Source: Microbacteriaceae bacterium X2B (GTDB lineage Bacteria > Actinomycetota > Actinomycetes > Actinomycetales > Microbacteriaceae). From it: 64,000 bases of DNA. The translations under genes were made by a program, and so were the position numbers. Positions 1,588 to 61,042 of the stretch are shown here, piece after piece. The DNA lies in contig SCPB01000004.1 of NCBI GenBank assembly GCA_005502445.1, positions 1 through 64,000 of the forward strand. Direction: 5' to 3'. How positions within the stretch are numbered: the stretch's first letter is position 1; each line of letters opens with the position of its first letter. The notes under the pieces were generated by a model, which was given only the letters and a program-made list of their open reading frames with translations, ran no database searches and was not told the origin of the DNA.

Positions 1588-4500
1588 GTGACCACCGACT
1601 CGTTCGTCCACCTCCACGTGCACAGCGAGTACTCCATGCTCGACGGCGCGGCGCGCGTGAAGCCGCTCATCGAGGAGGCGGTCGCGCAGGGGATGCCCGC
1701 GATCGCCGTGACCGACCACGGCAACATGTTCGGCGCCTTCGACTTCTGGCGCACGGCGACCGAGGCCGGCATCACGCCGATCATCGGCACCGAGGCCTAC
1801 CTCACGCCCGGCACGCACCGCACCGACAAGACACGGGTGAAGTGGGGTCAGGGCAGCGAGGACGACGTCTCGGGTGCCGGCTCGTACACGCACATCACGA
1901 TGCTCGCCGAGACCACGACGGGCATGCACAACCTCTTCCGCATGTCCTCGCTCGCCTCGATCGAGGGCTACTACTTCAAGCCGCGCATGGACCGCGAGCT
2001 GCTCAGCCGCTACAGCGAGGGCGTCATCGCGACGACGGGCTGCCCGAGCGGCGAAGTGCAGACGCGCCTGCGTCTCGGCCAGTACGACGAGGCGGTCGAG
2101 GCGGCCGCCGAGTTCCGCGACATCTTCGGGCGCGAGAACTACTTCGCCGAGATCATGGATCACGGCCTCGGCATCGAACGCCGGATCATGAGCGACCTCA
2201 TCCGCCTCGCGAAAGACCTGGGGCTGCCGCTCGTCGCGACCAACGACCTGCACTACACCCATCCCGGCGACGCGAGCTCGCACGCGGCGCTGCTGTGCGT
2301 GCAGTCCGGTTCCACGCTCGACGACCCCAACCGCTTCAAGTTCGACGCCGACGAGTTCTACCTGAAGACGCCGGCGCAGATGCGCGAGCTCTTCCGCGAT
2401 CATCCCGAGGCGTGCGACAGCACGCTGCTCATCGCCGAGCGCGCCGACGTCGCCTTCGACACCGCGGCCAACTACATGCCGCGCTTCCCGGTGCCCGAGG
2501 GCGAGACCGAGAACAGCTGGTTCGTCACGGAGGTCGAGGCGGGGCTCGCGCGACGGTATCCCGCGGGCATACCCGAGGCGGTGCGATCGCGAGCCGAGTA
2601 CGAGAACGGCGTCATCACGCAGATGGGCTTCGCCGGCTACTTCCTCGTCGTCGCCGACTTCATCAACTGGTCCAAGCGCAACGGAATCCGCGTCGGACCG
2701 GGCCGCGGCTCGGGCGCGGGCTCGATGGCCGCCTATGCGATGCGCATCACCGATCTCGATCCGATCGAGCACGGGCTCCTGTTCGAGCGCTTCCTCAACC
2801 CCGATCGCGTCTCGATGCCCGACTTCGACGTCGATTTCGACGACCGCCGCCGGGGCGAGGTCATCCGGTACGTCACCGAGAAGTACGGCGACGAGCGCGT
2901 GGCGCAGATCGTCACCTACGGCACGATCAAGGCCAAGCAGGCGCTCAAAGACAGCTCGCGCGTGCTGGGGTTCCCGTTCGGCATGGGCGAGAAGCTCACG
3001 AAGGCGATGCCCCCGGCGATCATGGGCAAGGACATGCCGCTGTCGGGCATCCTCGACCCGGCGCATCCCCGCCACAAGGAGGCGGGCGACTTCCGCGCCG
3101 TCATCGAGGTCGATCCGGATGCGCGCCGCGTCTTCGACACGGCGCTCGGCCTCGAGAACCTCAAGCGCCAGTGGGGCGTGCACGCCGCGGGCGTCATCAT
3201 GTCGAGCGAACCGCTCATCGACATCATCCCCATCATGAAGCGAGAGCAGGACGGGCAGATCGTCACGCAGTTCGACTACCCGGCCTGCGAAGCCCTCGGG
3301 CTCATCAAGATGGACTTCCTCGGGCTGCGCAATCTCACGATCATCGACGACGCACTCGACAACATCCGGGCCAATCGCGGTGCCGAGCTCGTGCTCGAAG
3401 ATCTGACGCTCGACGATCCGGCCGCGTACGAACTGCTCGCCCGGGGCGACACGCTCGGCGTCTTCCAGCTCGACGGCGGCCCCATGCGGTCGCTCCTGCG
3501 CATGATGAAGCCCGACAACTTCGAGGACATCTCCGCCGTCCTCGCCCTCTACCGACCGGGCCCCATGGGGGCCGAATCGCACACCAACTACGCGCTGCGC
3601 AAGAACGGTCGTCAGGCGATCACGCCGATCCATCCCGAGCTCGCCGAGCCGCTGCAGGAGGTGCTCGGCACGACGTACGGCCTCATCGTGTACCAGGAGC
3701 AGGTCATGGCGATCGCGCAGAAGCTCGCCGGGTACACGCTCGCGCAGGCCGACCTGCTACGCCGGGCGATGGGCAAGAAGAAGAAGAGCGAGCTCGACAA
3801 GCAGTATGAGAGCTTCCGCGCCGGCATGGCGGGCAACGGCTACTCCGAGGCGGCCACCAAGGTGCTCTGGGAGATCCTCGTCCCGTTCTCGGATTACGCC
3901 TTCAACAAGGCGCATTCGGCCGCCTACGGGGTCGTGTCGTACTGGACGGCTTACCTGAAGGCCCACTACCCGGCCGAGTACATGGCGGCGCTCCTGACGA
4001 GCGTCGGCGACTCGAAGGACAAGATGGCGGTCTACCTCAACGAGTGCCGCCGGATGGGCATCACCGTCCTGCCGCCCGATGTCAACGAGTCGATCGGGTT
4101 CTTCGCCGCCGTCGGCGACGACATCCGGTTCGGTCTCGGCGCGGTGCGCAACGTCGGCACGAACGTCGTCGAGGGCGTCCGGCGCGCGCGCAACGAGAAG
4201 GGGCGCTTCACGGGCTTCCACGACTTCCTCAAGAAGGTTCCGACGCCCGTGGCCAACAAGCGCGCGATCGAGTCGCTCATCAAGGCCGGCGCCTTCGACT
4301 CCCTCGGCGCGACCCGGCGCGCGCTCATGGAGATCCACGAGGGTGCCGTCGAGGCCGCCGTCAAGGAGAAGCGCGCCGAGGACAACGGCGACTTCGGATT
4401 CGACTTCGACAGCCTCTTCGACGGGCCCGCCGCGAGCGAGCAGGTGCCCGACCGCCCTGAGTGGGCGAAGAGGGACAAGCTCGCCTTCGAGCGCGAGATG

Positions 4501-56326: not shown

Positions 56327-56410
56327 GCGCGGGTGGCGGAAATGGCAGACGCGCTAGCTTGAGGTGCTAGTGCCCGAAAGGGCGTGGGGGTTCAAGTCCC
56401 CCCTCGCGCA
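56327..56410 (+). tRNA. tRNA-Leu (anticodon GAG)
   Basis: 84 bases without an encoded CCA. The acceptor stem GCGCGGG pairs with CTCGCGC. The anticodon stem CTAGC/GCTAG holds the loop TTGAGGT, so the anticodon is GAG. A class II variable arm (TGCCC-GAAA-GGGCG) and T arm GGGGG-TTCAAGT-CCCCC are intact. It reads CUC/CUU leucine codons. Confidence 0.95.
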
Positions 56411-56497
56411 CGCTGGTCGGTGAGTCGATCACCAACCAACCAGAACTGGTTGAGACAGTGCCCGCTCGCGCCGTGCTGCTGCACGGCGAGCGGTAAA

Positions 56498-56531: not shown

Positions 56532-56603
56532 CGCGTTCGGGGGCGTCGCGCGTGTCGAGAGGATGCTCGAGGACGCGCCTGCGCCGGTATCGTGAGCGCG
56601 ACC

Positions 56604-58010
56604 ATGACTCTGTCGCGCCGCACGCTGCTCATCGGAGGCACCGGCCTCTCGGTGCTCCTCGTCTCGGCGTGCACGCGCGACACCGACCCCCCGCCTGCGC
56701 CGACGCCCGACGCCGAACCCGGCCGCGGGCGACCGAGGGCGATCCTGCGCAGCGAGTGGGCGACCGACGGCTTCGCGCAGGGCTCGACGAGCTACCTGCC
56801 GGTGGGCGCCACGCCCGAGGACCGGGTCGCGCTCGCCCGGCCGGTCGCCGATCGGCTCTTCATCGCCGGCGAGGCCACCTCGACGACCGCCGCGAACACC
56901 GTGCACGGCGCCCGTGCCGAGGGCGAGCGCGCGGCCGCGGAGGTGCTGCGCGTCGCTCAGGAGGGCGAGCGGATCGTCGTCATCGGCGCCGGCGTCGCGG
57001 GGGCGGCCGCCGCGCGCCGACTCACCGAGGCGGGCGCCTCGGTCGTCGTGATCGAGGCGCGTGGTCGCGTCGGCGGCCGAGTGCGCACGATCGAGGCGGA
57101 GGGCTGGCCGATGCCCGTCGAGCTCGGGGCGCACTGGGTGCGCGACGTGCAGGAGAGCTCTCTGCTGGAGGATCTCGTCGCGCTCGGGGTCGAGATCGGC
57201 ATCGCCGACCAGCGCAGCGTTCGCGGCGCGGGCGGCGAGCCGATCGCCGAGGCGACCGGCGTCGATGACGCTGTCGCGCGCATCCTCGCCGCCGTGTCGG
57301 CGCAGACCGAGGCCTCCGCGCCGGATCTGCCCCTCGCGAGCGCTCTCGCCCAGCTCGCGCCGTTGCCGGAGGGGGCCCCGCCCGGAGCGCTGAGCGACCG
57401 CGAGTCGGCCGCTCTCGCCGTCGGCGAGCTCGGCGCCCGTCTCGGCGCGCCCGCGCGCCGCCTCTCGACGCGGTACGGGATCAGCGAGCAGGCTCCGGGC
57501 ACGGACAACCTCGTGCTCGGCGGCTACGCACGCATCGTCGACGAGCTCCTCGACGGCGTCGACGTGCTGCTCTCGAGCGCCGCCACCGGCGTCGACTGGG
57601 GCGACGAGGGCATGCGGGTGCGGCTCGCGACGGGCGAGTCGCTCGCCGCCGACCGCGCCGTGCTCACGGTGCCGCTCGGCGTTCTGCAGGGTGGCGGCAT
57701 CGAGTTCGAGCCCCCGCTGCCCCTCGCCCACCGCGTCGCGATCGCGAGCCTCGGCGTCGGCCGGCTGGAGACCGTGTGGCTGCGCTTCGATGAGGTGACG
57801 TGGAGCGACGAGGCGGCACTGTGGGCGCTCGCCGACCCCGAGGGCACGGCGACGATCACCCACTGGGTCAATCTGCATGCCGTCACCGGCGATGCCGTGC
57901 TCGTCGGGCTGATCGCAGCCGACCGAGTCACGCCGTTCCTGCGCTTGGATGACGACGAGGCCGTCACGGAGTGCCTGGCGAGTCTTCAGCCGTTCTTCGA
58001 CGCGGAGTGA
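56604..58010 (+). CDS. Secreted flavin amine oxidase, apparently circularly permuted
   Basis: A 468-residue FAD protein with a twin-arginine lipoprotein signal (MTLSRRTLLIGG...VSAC). What comes first after the signal is the segment that normally ends flavin amine oxidases (residues about 45-115: EWATDGFAQGSTSYLPVG; RLFIAGEATSTTAANTVHGA). Only then does the N-terminal Rossmann motif appear (VVIGAGVAGAAAARRLTEAG, VVIEARGRVGGRVRT). The protein ends where that C-terminal segment would usually follow. Export by the Tat system with bound FAD is likely; substrate unknown. GTG 56592 is an alternative start. Confidence 0.85.
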   Translation: MTLSRRTLLIGGTGLSVLLVSACTRDTDPPPAPTPDAEPGRGRPRAILRSEWATDGFAQGSTSYLPVGATPEDRVALARPVADRLFIAGEATSTTAANTVHGARAEGERAAAEVLRVAQEGERIVVIGAGVAGAAAARRLTEAGASVVVIEARGRVGGRVRTIEAEGWPMPVELGAHWVRDVQESSLLEDLVALGVEIGIADQRSVRGAGGEPIAEATGVDDAVARILAAVSAQTEASAPDLPLASALAQLAPLPEGAPPGALSDRESAALAVGELGARLGAPARRLSTRYGISEQAPGTDNLVLGGYARIVDELLDGVDVLLSSAATGVDWGDEGMRVRLATGESLAADRAVLTVPLGVLQGGGIEFEPPLPLAHRVAIASLGVGRLETVWLRFDEVTWSDEAALWALADPEGTATITHWVNLHAVTGDAVLVGLIAADRVTPFLRLDDDEAVTECLASLQPFFDAE

Positions 58011-58686
58011 GCAGGAGCGGCACTGCCCGGCGGAGCGGGCGCAGCGCGGCCTCGAGCACGCGGTGGACGAGGCGCGGCAGCGGCAGGAGCATGAGGCCGA
58101 TCGCGACGGCCGTGAAGAGGCCGATCGCCGCGGCGCTGTAGGCGATGAACTCGAGCGGTCCAGACACCTGGGCCGGGTCGAGGAAGAAGTAGGGATACCA
58201 CCCGATGATCGCGCCGCGCACGAGCGTCACGACGCCCCAGCCGAGGGGATACCCGATGACGATCCAGAGCACGGCTCGGCGGACGTGGCGCTCGCCCGGT
58301 GCGAGCAGCCAGTCCAGGAGCAGGTAGCCGGGGATCCAGAAGTGCAGCAACTGGTCGCTCCACGGCACGTCGAGGCGGTAGCCGCGCGCTTCGGCCTGCG
58401 AGGCCAGGAGCGCGAAGACGATGCCGGCCACGATCAGGAAGGTGGTGACGCACAGTCGCAGGCCGGGCATCCACGCGGGATCGACGGGGCGGCGCAGGGC
58501 GGCGACGCCGCAGAGCACGTTCGCGACGACCGCGACCATGTTGCTCTGCACCGTGAGGTAGCCGAAGAAGTTCGCCGAGGCGAATGCGCTGAACCCGAGG
58601 CCGTACTGGAACCGCGCGACGAGAGCGACGACGCCGACGACCGCGACGAGCAGGCGCAGCGTCCCGAAGACCCCTCGTGCCGTCAC
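57964..58686 (-). CDS. Pr6Pr family membrane protein
   Basis: A 240-residue protein with six predicted helices: FFGYLTVQSNMVAVVANVLC, LLHFWIPGYLLLDWLLAPGE and GWYPYFFLDP are typical of the FAR-17a/AIG1-like Pr6Pr family. Function unknown. Its last 47 bp overlap the convergent amine oxidase gene. Confidence 0.85.
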   Translation of the reverse strand: MTARGVFGTLRLLVAVVGVVALVARFQYGLGFSAFASANFFGYLTVQSNMVAVVANVLCGVAALRRPVDPAWMPGLRLCVTTFLIVAGIVFALLASQAEARGYRLDVPWSDQLLHFWIPGYLLLDWLLAPGERHVRRAVLWIVIGYPLGWGVVTLVRGAIIGWYPYFFLDPAQVSGPLEFIAYSAAAIGLFTAVAIGLMLLPLPRLVHRVLEAALRPLRRAVPLLLTPRRRTAEDSPGTP

Positions 58687-58735: not shown

Positions 58736-61042
58736 TCAGCGGACAGGAACGAGCTGCACGATGACCGATTTCGACGTCGGAGTGCCGCTCACGTCGGCGA
58801 CCGAGTCGAGCGGCACGAGCACGTTGGTCTCCGGATAGTAGGCGGCCGCATTGCCGCGCGGCGTCGAATAGGCCACGATGCGGAAGGCCTCGGCGCGTCG
58901 CTCGACGCCGTCGCGGAACTCGGAGACGAGATCGACGAGGTCGCCGTCGGCCAGGCCGAGAGCCGCGATGTCGTCGGGGTTGACGAGCACGACGCGACGA
59001 CCGCCGTGGATGCCGCGGTAGCGGTCATCCTCGCCGTAGATCGTGGTGTTGTACTGGTCGTGCGATCGGATCGTCTGCAGCAGCAGCCGACCGGGCGGGA
59101 TGCGCGGGTACTCCAGCGGGTTCGCCGTGAACACCGCACGGCCGCTCGGCGTCGGGAAGGTGCGCGAGTCGCGCGCGCCGTGCGGGAGCACGAAGCTCGC
59201 GCCCTTCTCGATGCGCGACTCGAAGTCGTCGAAGCCGGGCACGACGCGCGCGATGCGCCGGCGGACCGATGCGTAGTCGCGCTCGAACTCCGCCCAGTCT
59301 GCGACCGGGGCGCCGGGCAGCGCATCGGGCCCCTCAAACAGCAGAGCCGAGAGGCGGGCAATGATCGCGACCTCCGACAGCAGCTCGTCGCTCGCCGGTG
59401 CCAGCCGCCCGCGGGAGGCGTGCACCGAGCTCATCGAGTCCTCGACGGTCACGCGCTGTTCCCCGCCGGCCTGCACGTCGCGCTCGGTGCGCCCGAGGGT
59501 CGGCAGGATGAGCGCGCGCCGACCGGTCATGAGGTGGGAGCGGTTGAGCTTGGTCGACACCTGCACGGTCAGGCGGGTGCGCGCGAGCGCCTCCTCGGTG
59601 ACCGCGGTGTCGGGCGTCGCGCGGGCGAAGTTGCCGCCGAGGCCCATGAACACGCGGACGGCTCCCTCGCGCATCGCCCGGATCGCCGCGACGGTGTCGA
59701 CCCCGTGCGTGCGCGGCGAGACGAATCCGAACTCGGCGTCGAGGGCGGCGTGGAACGACTCGGGCATGCGCTCGAAGATGCCCATCGTGCGGTCGCCCTG
59801 GACGTTGGAATGGCCGCGCACCGGGCACACCCCGGCGCCGCTGCGGCCGATGCTGCCCTGCAGCAGCAGCACGTTGACGACATCGCGCAGCATCGCGACC
59901 GAGTGCTTGTGCTGCGTCAGCCCCATGGCCCAGCACACGACCGTCGCTCCGGACGCCACGAGGGCGTCGCCCGTGTCGCGGATCTGCCGCTCGGTGAGCC
60001 CTGTCGCGGTGACGATCTCGCTCCACGGGGTCGCGCGCATCGCTTCGAGGTAGCCGTCGACTCCCGTCGTGCACTCCGCGATGAACGCGCGGTCGAAGAC
60101 CGTGCCCGTGTGCTCCTCGACCTCGAGCAGGTGCTTGCCCAGGCCCTGGAAGAGCGCCTGGTCGCCACCGAGGCGGATCTGCAGGAAGTCGTCGGCGAGC
60201 ACCGTTCCGCCGAGCAGGAGGCCGCGCGGCGACTGCGGGTTCGCGAACCGGATCAGGCCGGCCTCGGGCAGCGGGTTCACCGCGATGATCCGCGCGCCGT
60301 TGCGTTTGGCCTTCTCGAGCGCGGACAGCATGCGGGGGTGGTTGGTTCCCGGATTCTGCCCGGCGATGATGATGAGCGAGGCGCGGTGGATGTCATCGAG
60401 GCTCACCGAGCCCTTGCCTATGCCGATGGTCTCGGTGAGGGCCGATCCGCTGGATTCGTGGCACATGTTCGAGCAGTCCGGCAGGTTGTTGGTGCCGATG
60501 CCGCGCACGAGCAGCTGGTAGAGGAACGCCGCCTCGTTGGATGTCCGTCCCGAGGTGTAGAAGACGGCCTGATCGGGCGAATCCAGGGAACGGATCTCGT
60601 CGGCGATCAGAGCGAGCGCGGCATCCCAGTCGATCGGGGTGTAGTGCGTCGCGCCCTCCGCGAGAACCATGGGGGCGGTCAATCTGCCCTGCTGGCCGAG
60701 CCAGTAGTCGTCGCGCTCGCGCAGCTCGGCGACCGAGTGCTCGGCGAAGAACTCGGGCGTGACGCGTCGCAGCGTCGCCTCCTCCGCGACGGCCTTCGCA
60801 CCGTTCTCGCAGAACTCGGCCGTGTGCCGGTGGTCGCCCTCGGGCCAGGCGCAGCCCATGCAGTCGAAGCCGGTCTTCTGATTGACGCGCAGCAGCGTCT
60901 GCGCCGTGCGCACGACGCCCATCTGCTCGACGGATGCCTGCAGGGCGTGCATCACACCGGGGATCCCGGCCGCAGAACGGGCGGGCGGGGTGACGCGCAG
61001 CCTCGACTCGTCGATACCGGTTCGGGGGGCCTTGCGTGCCAT
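58736..61042 (-). CDS. FdhF/YdeP-family molybdopterin oxidoreductase
   Basis: A 768-residue molybdenum enzyme: GFDCMGCAWPEGDHRHTAEF cysteines near the N-terminus, LYQLLVRGIGTNNLPDCSNM then CHESSG, IIIAGQNPGTNHPRML and QTIRSHDQYNTTIYGEDDRY (pterin-binding C-terminal domain). The family is linked to acid tolerance in E. coli (YdeP) and is annotated as formate-dehydrogenase-like, but the substrate is not proven. It is divergent from fdhD, which matures such enzymes. Confidence 0.9.
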   Translation of the reverse strand: MARKAPRTGIDESRLRVTPPARSAAGIPGVMHALQASVEQMGVVRTAQTLLRVNQKTGFDCMGCAWPEGDHRHTAEFCENGAKAVAEEATLRRVTPEFFAEHSVAELRERDDYWLGQQGRLTAPMVLAEGATHYTPIDWDAALALIADEIRSLDSPDQAVFYTSGRTSNEAAFLYQLLVRGIGTNNLPDCSNMCHESSGSALTETIGIGKGSVSLDDIHRASLIIIAGQNPGTNHPRMLSALEKAKRNGARIIAVNPLPEAGLIRFANPQSPRGLLLGGTVLADDFLQIRLGGDQALFQGLGKHLLEVEEHTGTVFDRAFIAECTTGVDGYLEAMRATPWSEIVTATGLTERQIRDTGDALVASGATVVCWAMGLTQHKHSVAMLRDVVNVLLLQGSIGRSGAGVCPVRGHSNVQGDRTMGIFERMPESFHAALDAEFGFVSPRTHGVDTVAAIRAMREGAVRVFMGLGGNFARATPDTAVTEEALARTRLTVQVSTKLNRSHLMTGRRALILPTLGRTERDVQAGGEQRVTVEDSMSSVHASRGRLAPASDELLSEVAIIARLSALLFEGPDALPGAPVADWAEFERDYASVRRRIARVVPGFDDFESRIEKGASFVLPHGARDSRTFPTPSGRAVFTANPLEYPRIPPGRLLLQTIRSHDQYNTTIYGEDDRYRGIHGGRRVVLVNPDDIAALGLADGDLVDLVSEFRDGVERRAEAFRIVAYSTPRGNAAAYYPETNVLVPLDSVADVSGTPTSKSVIVQLVPVR

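Follow-up and report, generated by a model that had tools for sequence, protein, structure and literature searches.

The window, meaning the whole 64,000-nucleotide stretch analysed here (positions 1 to 64,000 of contig SCPB01000004.1 of Microbacteriaceae bacterium X2B), carries on its forward strand a gene for a permuted flavin amine-oxidase-like protein of 468 residues (56604..58010, stop codon 58008-58010), the start codon being ATG at 56604, with GTG at 56592 as an alternative. All parts of the protein lie on this same strand. The N-terminal signal and lipobox (56604..56672), read from the sequence, comprise the twin arginines R5-R6 within SRRTLL (residues 4-9, 56613-56630), a hydrophobic stretch and the lipobox VSAC (residues 20-23, 56661-56672) with Cys23, a pattern by which the protein is predicted to be a Tat lipoprotein. 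A proline-rich linker (residues 24-46, 56673..56741), delimited by the sequence and the model pLDDT, leads from the anchor to the folded part. The FAD-binding segment, which is C-terminal in the canonical family, has been moved to residues 48-117 (56745..56954, delimited by alignment to LSD2) and carries the motifs GEATS (89-93) and TVHGA (99-103). A short joint at residues 118-122 (56955..56969, from DSSP of the model) takes the place of the ancestral termini, and the core with the Rossmann FAD half and the substrate domain follows (residues 121-466, 56964..58001, from the matches to LSD2 and LSD1), with the FAD motifs GAGVAG (128-133), E151 and GGR (157-159), before the protein ends in SLQPFFDAE (460-468). 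Two residues stand out in the alignments: Thr390 (57771..57773) occupies the position of the catalytic lysine of LSD and polyamine oxidases (LSD1 K661, maize PAO K300), the aligned LSD2 residue being, as we assume, the catalytic lysine as well, and Thr62 (56787..56789) stands where canonical relatives carry tyrosine, in a column that we take to be that of LSD1 Tyr761.

On the reverse strand, a gene for a membrane protein of the Pr6Pr family (57964..58686, 240 residues; NF038065 with 100.4 bits at a cut-off of 30) runs convergently towards the flavin gene and overlaps it by 47 nt, stop codons included. The flavin gene is preceded, at a distance of about 190 nt, by a tRNA-Leu (gag) gene (56327-56411, forward strand), and downstream of the pair lies a molybdopterin oxidoreductase gene on the reverse strand (58736-61042). 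A search of three further genomes from this genus gave no match to the latter at E<=1e-30, which leaves a comparison of the site within the genus without a marker.

Segment order, fold and distribution

The original prediction, made from the sequence alone, held that the FAD segment precedes the Rossmann motif, the reverse of the order in the family, and the comparison with known structures bears this out. In a phmmer search against PDB sequences, residues 121-466 align to residues 336-696 of human LSD2 and residues 48-114 to residues 707-773; since both pieces are whole, the order has been swapped without loss of the core. All hallmarks of PF01593 (Rossmann GxGxxG, ribose-binding Glu, GGR and GE(A)T) are present in the window protein, which scores 177 bits (cut-off 19.8) with Amino_oxidase, the profile of the polyamine and monoamine oxidases; it differs from these in segment order, where the Rossmann half should come first and the FAD segment last, as well as in the Lys300 equivalent and the tyrosine position. 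Compared with LSD2, a few residues connect the former termini, and the new opening of the chain falls where the substrate domain ends, ahead of the GEAT-bearing segment. Thus, that the protein is a circularly permuted amine-oxidase fold seems to us practically certain.

A second complete C-terminal segment elsewhere in the protein, named beforehand as the observation that would speak against a permutation, occurs in none of 103 homologous open reading frames, the window's included (0/103), and a duplicated intermediate with both segment copies was ruled out by the same count. The order is shared by 42 homologues from other Microbacteriaceae genomes, 34-52% identical to the window protein, which rules out an assembly error; together with the window protein they form the 43 rows of alignment A1. 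Chance or artefact was likewise ruled out, as the permuted gene occurs in 61/199 genomes of the family, a few of the matches in those 61 being listed as partial or two-piece. In a 62nd family genome (G012), the permuted gene is split across two contig ends. No solved structure of a permuted relative was noticed among the three PDB alignments read for segment order, all of which were to LSD2.

The AlphaFold2 model of the flavin lipoprotein (pLDDT 89.4, pTM 0.88) is low in confidence at residues 1-40 and has block means of pLDDT >=90 over residues 41-120. By DSSP, a helix at residues 100-117 is followed by the first Rossmann strand at 123-127, with five residues in between. The best VIA match of the core is LSD1 (2ejr; Z 26.3, 341 residues, rmsd 2.7), the rows for LSD1 and LSD2 covering model residues 115-468, and Foldseek likewise finds the LSD1/LSD2 core fold (best E 2.2e-24). 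The amine-oxidase domains of LSD1 and LSD2 (KDM1A and KDM1B) are therefore the best PDB matches both by sequence and by structure, and share with the window protein the core fold and the FAD motifs, whereas the window protein is permuted, carries threonine for the catalytic lysine and is a predicted Tat lipoprotein. That residues 48-117 close the FAD site is suggested by the confidence of the model and the conserved motifs, the structural alignments covering the core. Judging by how near the joined ends come to each other in the model, the permutation probably dates far back and is neutral for the structure.

Beyond the family, at least four permuted genes were found in other families of the same order (297 genomes), at least eight in other orders of the same class (345 genomes), at least four in other classes of the same phylum (346 genomes) and at least three in Pseudomonadota (299 genomes), the second phylum sampled, where two more matches were canonical; these counts are minimal, since strict E-value limits were applied and top candidates only were scored, and the genome samples partly overlap, each draw including members of the family. 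One record, L032, is from Qipengyuania, a genus of Pseudomonadota. Among 72,556 plasmid records, P0001 gave six and L107 gave 11 matches, counted irrespective of segment order, and a contig scan with a single protein as query returned the Rossmann match only.

How often the permutation arose is answered differently by the two analyses of the phylogeny. The best trees (72 rows) require four changes of segment order, and 0/200 bootstrap trees contain a single change, as would be expected if the permutation had arisen repeatedly at the same site rather than once; the AU test, run on 34 self-chosen rows with a simpler model, nevertheless allows one permuted clade (p 0.346, i.e. a single clade was not rejected), and the deep branches are weak. 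We regard repeated origin as unlikely, and one old permutation event as possible.

Natural circular permutation of large cofactor enzymes is uncommon. No report of circular permutation in the amine-oxidase superfamily appeared among the papers listed by full-text searches of an open-access library, and the word stem "permut" is absent from the main text of a review on polyamine oxidases (PMC7576179). Here, the permutation is conserved across one bacterial family and has relatives in a second phylum.

A further permuted group, which lacks a signal peptide (L083, L084, L086, L087, L130 and L131), stems from two families elsewhere in the order and from the second phylum; its members carry tryptophan or tyrosine at the aromatic position, and methionine replaces the threonine of TVHGA.

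Export and lipid anchoring

Signal classes were assigned by a pattern scan, not by a signal-peptide predictor, and are to be read as such throughout. That a Tat lipoprotein signal sits on a permuted flavin amine-oxidase fold had been proposed for the window protein, and the proposal extends well to its homologues: R5, R6 and C23 are invariant in 43/43 rows of A1, and all 58 rows of the family's own clade, hereafter the lipoprotein clade, are Tat lipoproteins by the scan. The 14 proteins of the other permuted group comprise seven Tat lipoproteins, six with a Tat-type signal lacking a lipobox and one without signal. The six cytosolic permuted rows show no signal by eye, in agreement with the scan for 5/6, the Tat label given to L084 being judged spurious by eye; L115 is a further permuted protein without signal. 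Among 25 canonical-order rows, eight were classed as Tat lipoproteins, three as Tat-type and 14 as lacking a signal.

The further idea, that the permutation serves to provide an N-terminus suitable for surface anchoring, fares poorly. Selection for a lipid anchor on the new N-terminus would fit the raw tally of Tat lipoproteins among all permuted rows (65/78) and the additional Tat-type signals in the other permuted group (6/14). However, 58 of these 65 belong to one clade, and on the tree the association between permutation and export comes down to one supported independent pair. Moreover, canonical-order Tat lipoproteins exist (8/25), so that anchoring needs no permutation, and permuted proteins without signal exist, so that the permutation needs no anchor. 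For instance, the same genus includes L033 (genome G189, 2725-4098, forward strand), an amine oxidase of canonical order that is a Tat lipoprotein and has a full active site; the permuted gene was not found in its genome. Together with L034 from the same family, L033 shares with the window protein the predicted export, anchor and fold, but has the normal segment order, and the lysine, tyrosine and tryptophan positions are kept in 25/25 canonical rows. Hence, we consider it highly improbable that the permutation was selected for anchoring. Since relatives exist in either segment order and in both anchored and cytosolic form, the structural cost of moved termini is directly testable.

The active site of the lipoprotein clade

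Active-site columns were read from an alignment of 103 re-ordered proteins, comprising 58 of the 66 clade lipoprotein genes found (60 in the family sample without G038 and six in the wider order sample) and a comparison set of 45 (14 of the other permuted group, six cytosolic permuted and 25 canonical). In the clade, the FAD positions G128, G130, G133, E151, G157, G158, G89 and A103 are conserved in 58/58 rows and E90 in 57/58; judged by these motifs, the flavin lipoprotein very probably binds FAD.

The active-site positions behave otherwise. Lysine occupies the catalytic position in 11/58 clade rows (lysine or arginine in 14/58), in 13/14 of the other permuted group, in 6/6 cytosolic permuted rows and in all 25 canonical ones. 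The tyrosine position holds tyrosine in 2/58 clade rows and phenylalanine in 15/58; it is tyrosine in 14/14 and 25/25 rows of the other permuted group and the canonical set, respectively, while the six cytosolic permuted rows divide into four with tryptophan and two with tyrosine. A third column, that of W178, which was chosen after the alignment had been seen, is tryptophan in 45/45 of the others as against 9/58 in the clade, the window protein being one of those that keep it. All three positions (K; Y or W; W) are retained in 0/58 clade rows versus 44/45 of the others, 39/58 clade rows keeping none of the three; under looser classes (K/R; Y/W/F; W/F), the full set is retained in 5/58 versus 45/45. 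The drift is broad and not one clean loss, with six switches of lysine state along the tree of 72 rows.

The lysine that contacts flavin N5 via a water molecule, a hallmark of LSD, PAO and MAO enzymes, is absent from the window protein, which has Thr390 instead. K661A abolished the activity of LSD1, and Lys300Met slowed flavin reduction in maize PAO 1400-fold (PMC3184146); PMC7576179 describes Lys300 as strictly conserved throughout the PAO clades aligned there. A conventional secreted oxidase of amines or polyamines, permuted by accident and tolerating the lost lysine and aromatic residue or substituting them by neighbouring ones, would account for the Amino_oxidase match in 43/43 rows of A1 (E<=1e-5), for the lysine still present in part of the clade and for the full site of permuted relatives elsewhere, where 13/14 and 6/6 retain all three positions; yet the large share of the clade with no position left, the single row (1/58) that retains lysine together with tyrosine or tryptophan, and the near abolition of activity by the published lysine mutations make this improbable in our judgement. 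The expectation that the window protein would be a working FAD enzyme of the amine-oxidase family is likewise at odds with the active-site positions of its clade. Likely, therefore, the clade does not consist of classical amine oxidases, although some members may still oxidise amines, given those that keep the lysine, those with phenylalanine at the tyrosine position and those that pass the looser classes.

Pairing with Pr6Pr

A convergent Pr6Pr gene accompanies the flavin gene in 37/37 loci of the lipoprotein clade read with flanks (36 and the window); the 3' ends overlap in 28/37 pairs, and the remaining nine adjoin without overlap. By coordinates, a convergent Pr6Pr gene lies beside 58/61 permuted genes of the family, with gaps of up to 1,049 nt. 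Two of the exceptions (G176 and G044) are contig ends, their Pr6Pr standing at the end of a separate contig, and the third (G038) belongs to a different permuted clade in which the lysine is retained; the two permuted fragments of G012, which have no adjoining Pr6Pr, resemble the L071 clade, which also keeps the lysine. Pr6Pr matches are generally common (163/199 genomes at E<=1e-8), whereas the subfamily closest to the window's partner, delimited at E<=1e-39, a limit chosen after the match list had been seen, is confined to 58/199 genomes, none of which lacks the permuted gene. Beside permuted genes of other clades, Pr6Pr was found in 0/16 cases with flanks of roughly 2 to 10 kb per side, and no other conserved neighbour occurred in more than 5/46 loci (the 25 largest groups being listed, with flanks of 1.5 to 5 kb), in a tally that left out both paired genes and antisense readings of them.

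We consider it quite likely that the flavin protein and Pr6Pr are functionally paired. The pairing may partly reflect a locked 3' overlap, a reading we considered because convergent genes do not form one transcript, but the nine pairs without overlap persist all the same. Active-site drift and Pr6Pr pairing coincide in one clade, and a single coincidence on the tree leaves a causal link between them unproven.

The name Pr6Pr gave no match in the open-access library searched, and the pairing is a first lead on its function. The model of the window's Pr6Pr (pLDDT 88.8) is built of six long helices followed by a shorter one at the C-terminus. Its best VIA match is TMEM164 (9lw1; 180 residues) with a Z of 13.3, which is close to the value that helical bundles can reach by their common arrangement, followed by VKOR (Z 8.0) and then unrelated helical proteins. 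TMEM164 and AIG1 are related proteins. Among 37 Pr6Pr proteins searched against Pfam, TMEM164 appears in 2/37 (best E 0.3) and Far-17a_AIG1 in 1/37 (0.95), weak scores that unrelated families exceed. Thr45 and His115 are invariant in 37/37 proteins of the paired set and are present in 19 and 20, respectively, of 20 other Pr6Pr proteins. ADTRP (T47, H131) and AIG1 (T43, H134) hydrolyse lipids using a threonine and a histidine (PMC8123165). Any likeness of the partner to TMEM164, AIG1 and ADTRP would lie in the helical bundle and in the Thr/His pair, as against a Foldseek search without match at E<=0.001 and Pfam scores far from the cut-offs. Pr6Pr may be an acyl hydrolase or transferase resembling TMEM164/AIG1; that it acts as an acyl enzyme on lipids is to be taken as a lead rather than a result, and a lipid-related role for the pair, drawn from the bundle match, the weak Pfam hits and the two conserved residues, remains tentative.

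Taken together, we moderately favour an exported, membrane-tethered FAD protein that has ceased to act as a classical amine oxidase and works with Pr6Pr. From the conserved motifs, FAD would be bound in the cytoplasm, the folded flavin protein would be exported via Tat, and the proline-rich linker and lipid anchor would tether it at the outer face of the membrane. With the lysine and aromatic positions lost in most of the clade and the FAD motifs retained, the protein would most likely be an FAD-dependent redox protein with new chemistry, acting together with Pr6Pr on a substrate that is, speculatively, perhaps a lipid or another membrane compound. As an alternative, the protein could be a pseudoenzyme that binds FAD without catalysis and serves to stabilise or regulate Pr6Pr. 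This would explain the strict pairing and the drift of active-site positions to many residues while the FAD motifs are retained; but in the absence of any redox role one would expect these motifs to have decayed, and substrate-domain residues such as W400 are invariant in A1, so we deem such a pseudoenzyme improbable. A more far-reaching version of the favoured redox protein, in which one old permutation founded the two-phylum branch and the clade combines a non-amine-oxidase FAD lipoprotein with Pr6Pr as an intramembrane acyl enzyme modifying outer-face membrane lipids, strikes us as rather unlikely as a whole. The drift and the strictly paired membrane protein in one clade point to a new two-gene system.

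In a few genomes, a second Pr6Pr gene lies upstream of the permuted gene, pointing in the same direction in G076 and G139 and divergently in G025 and G102.
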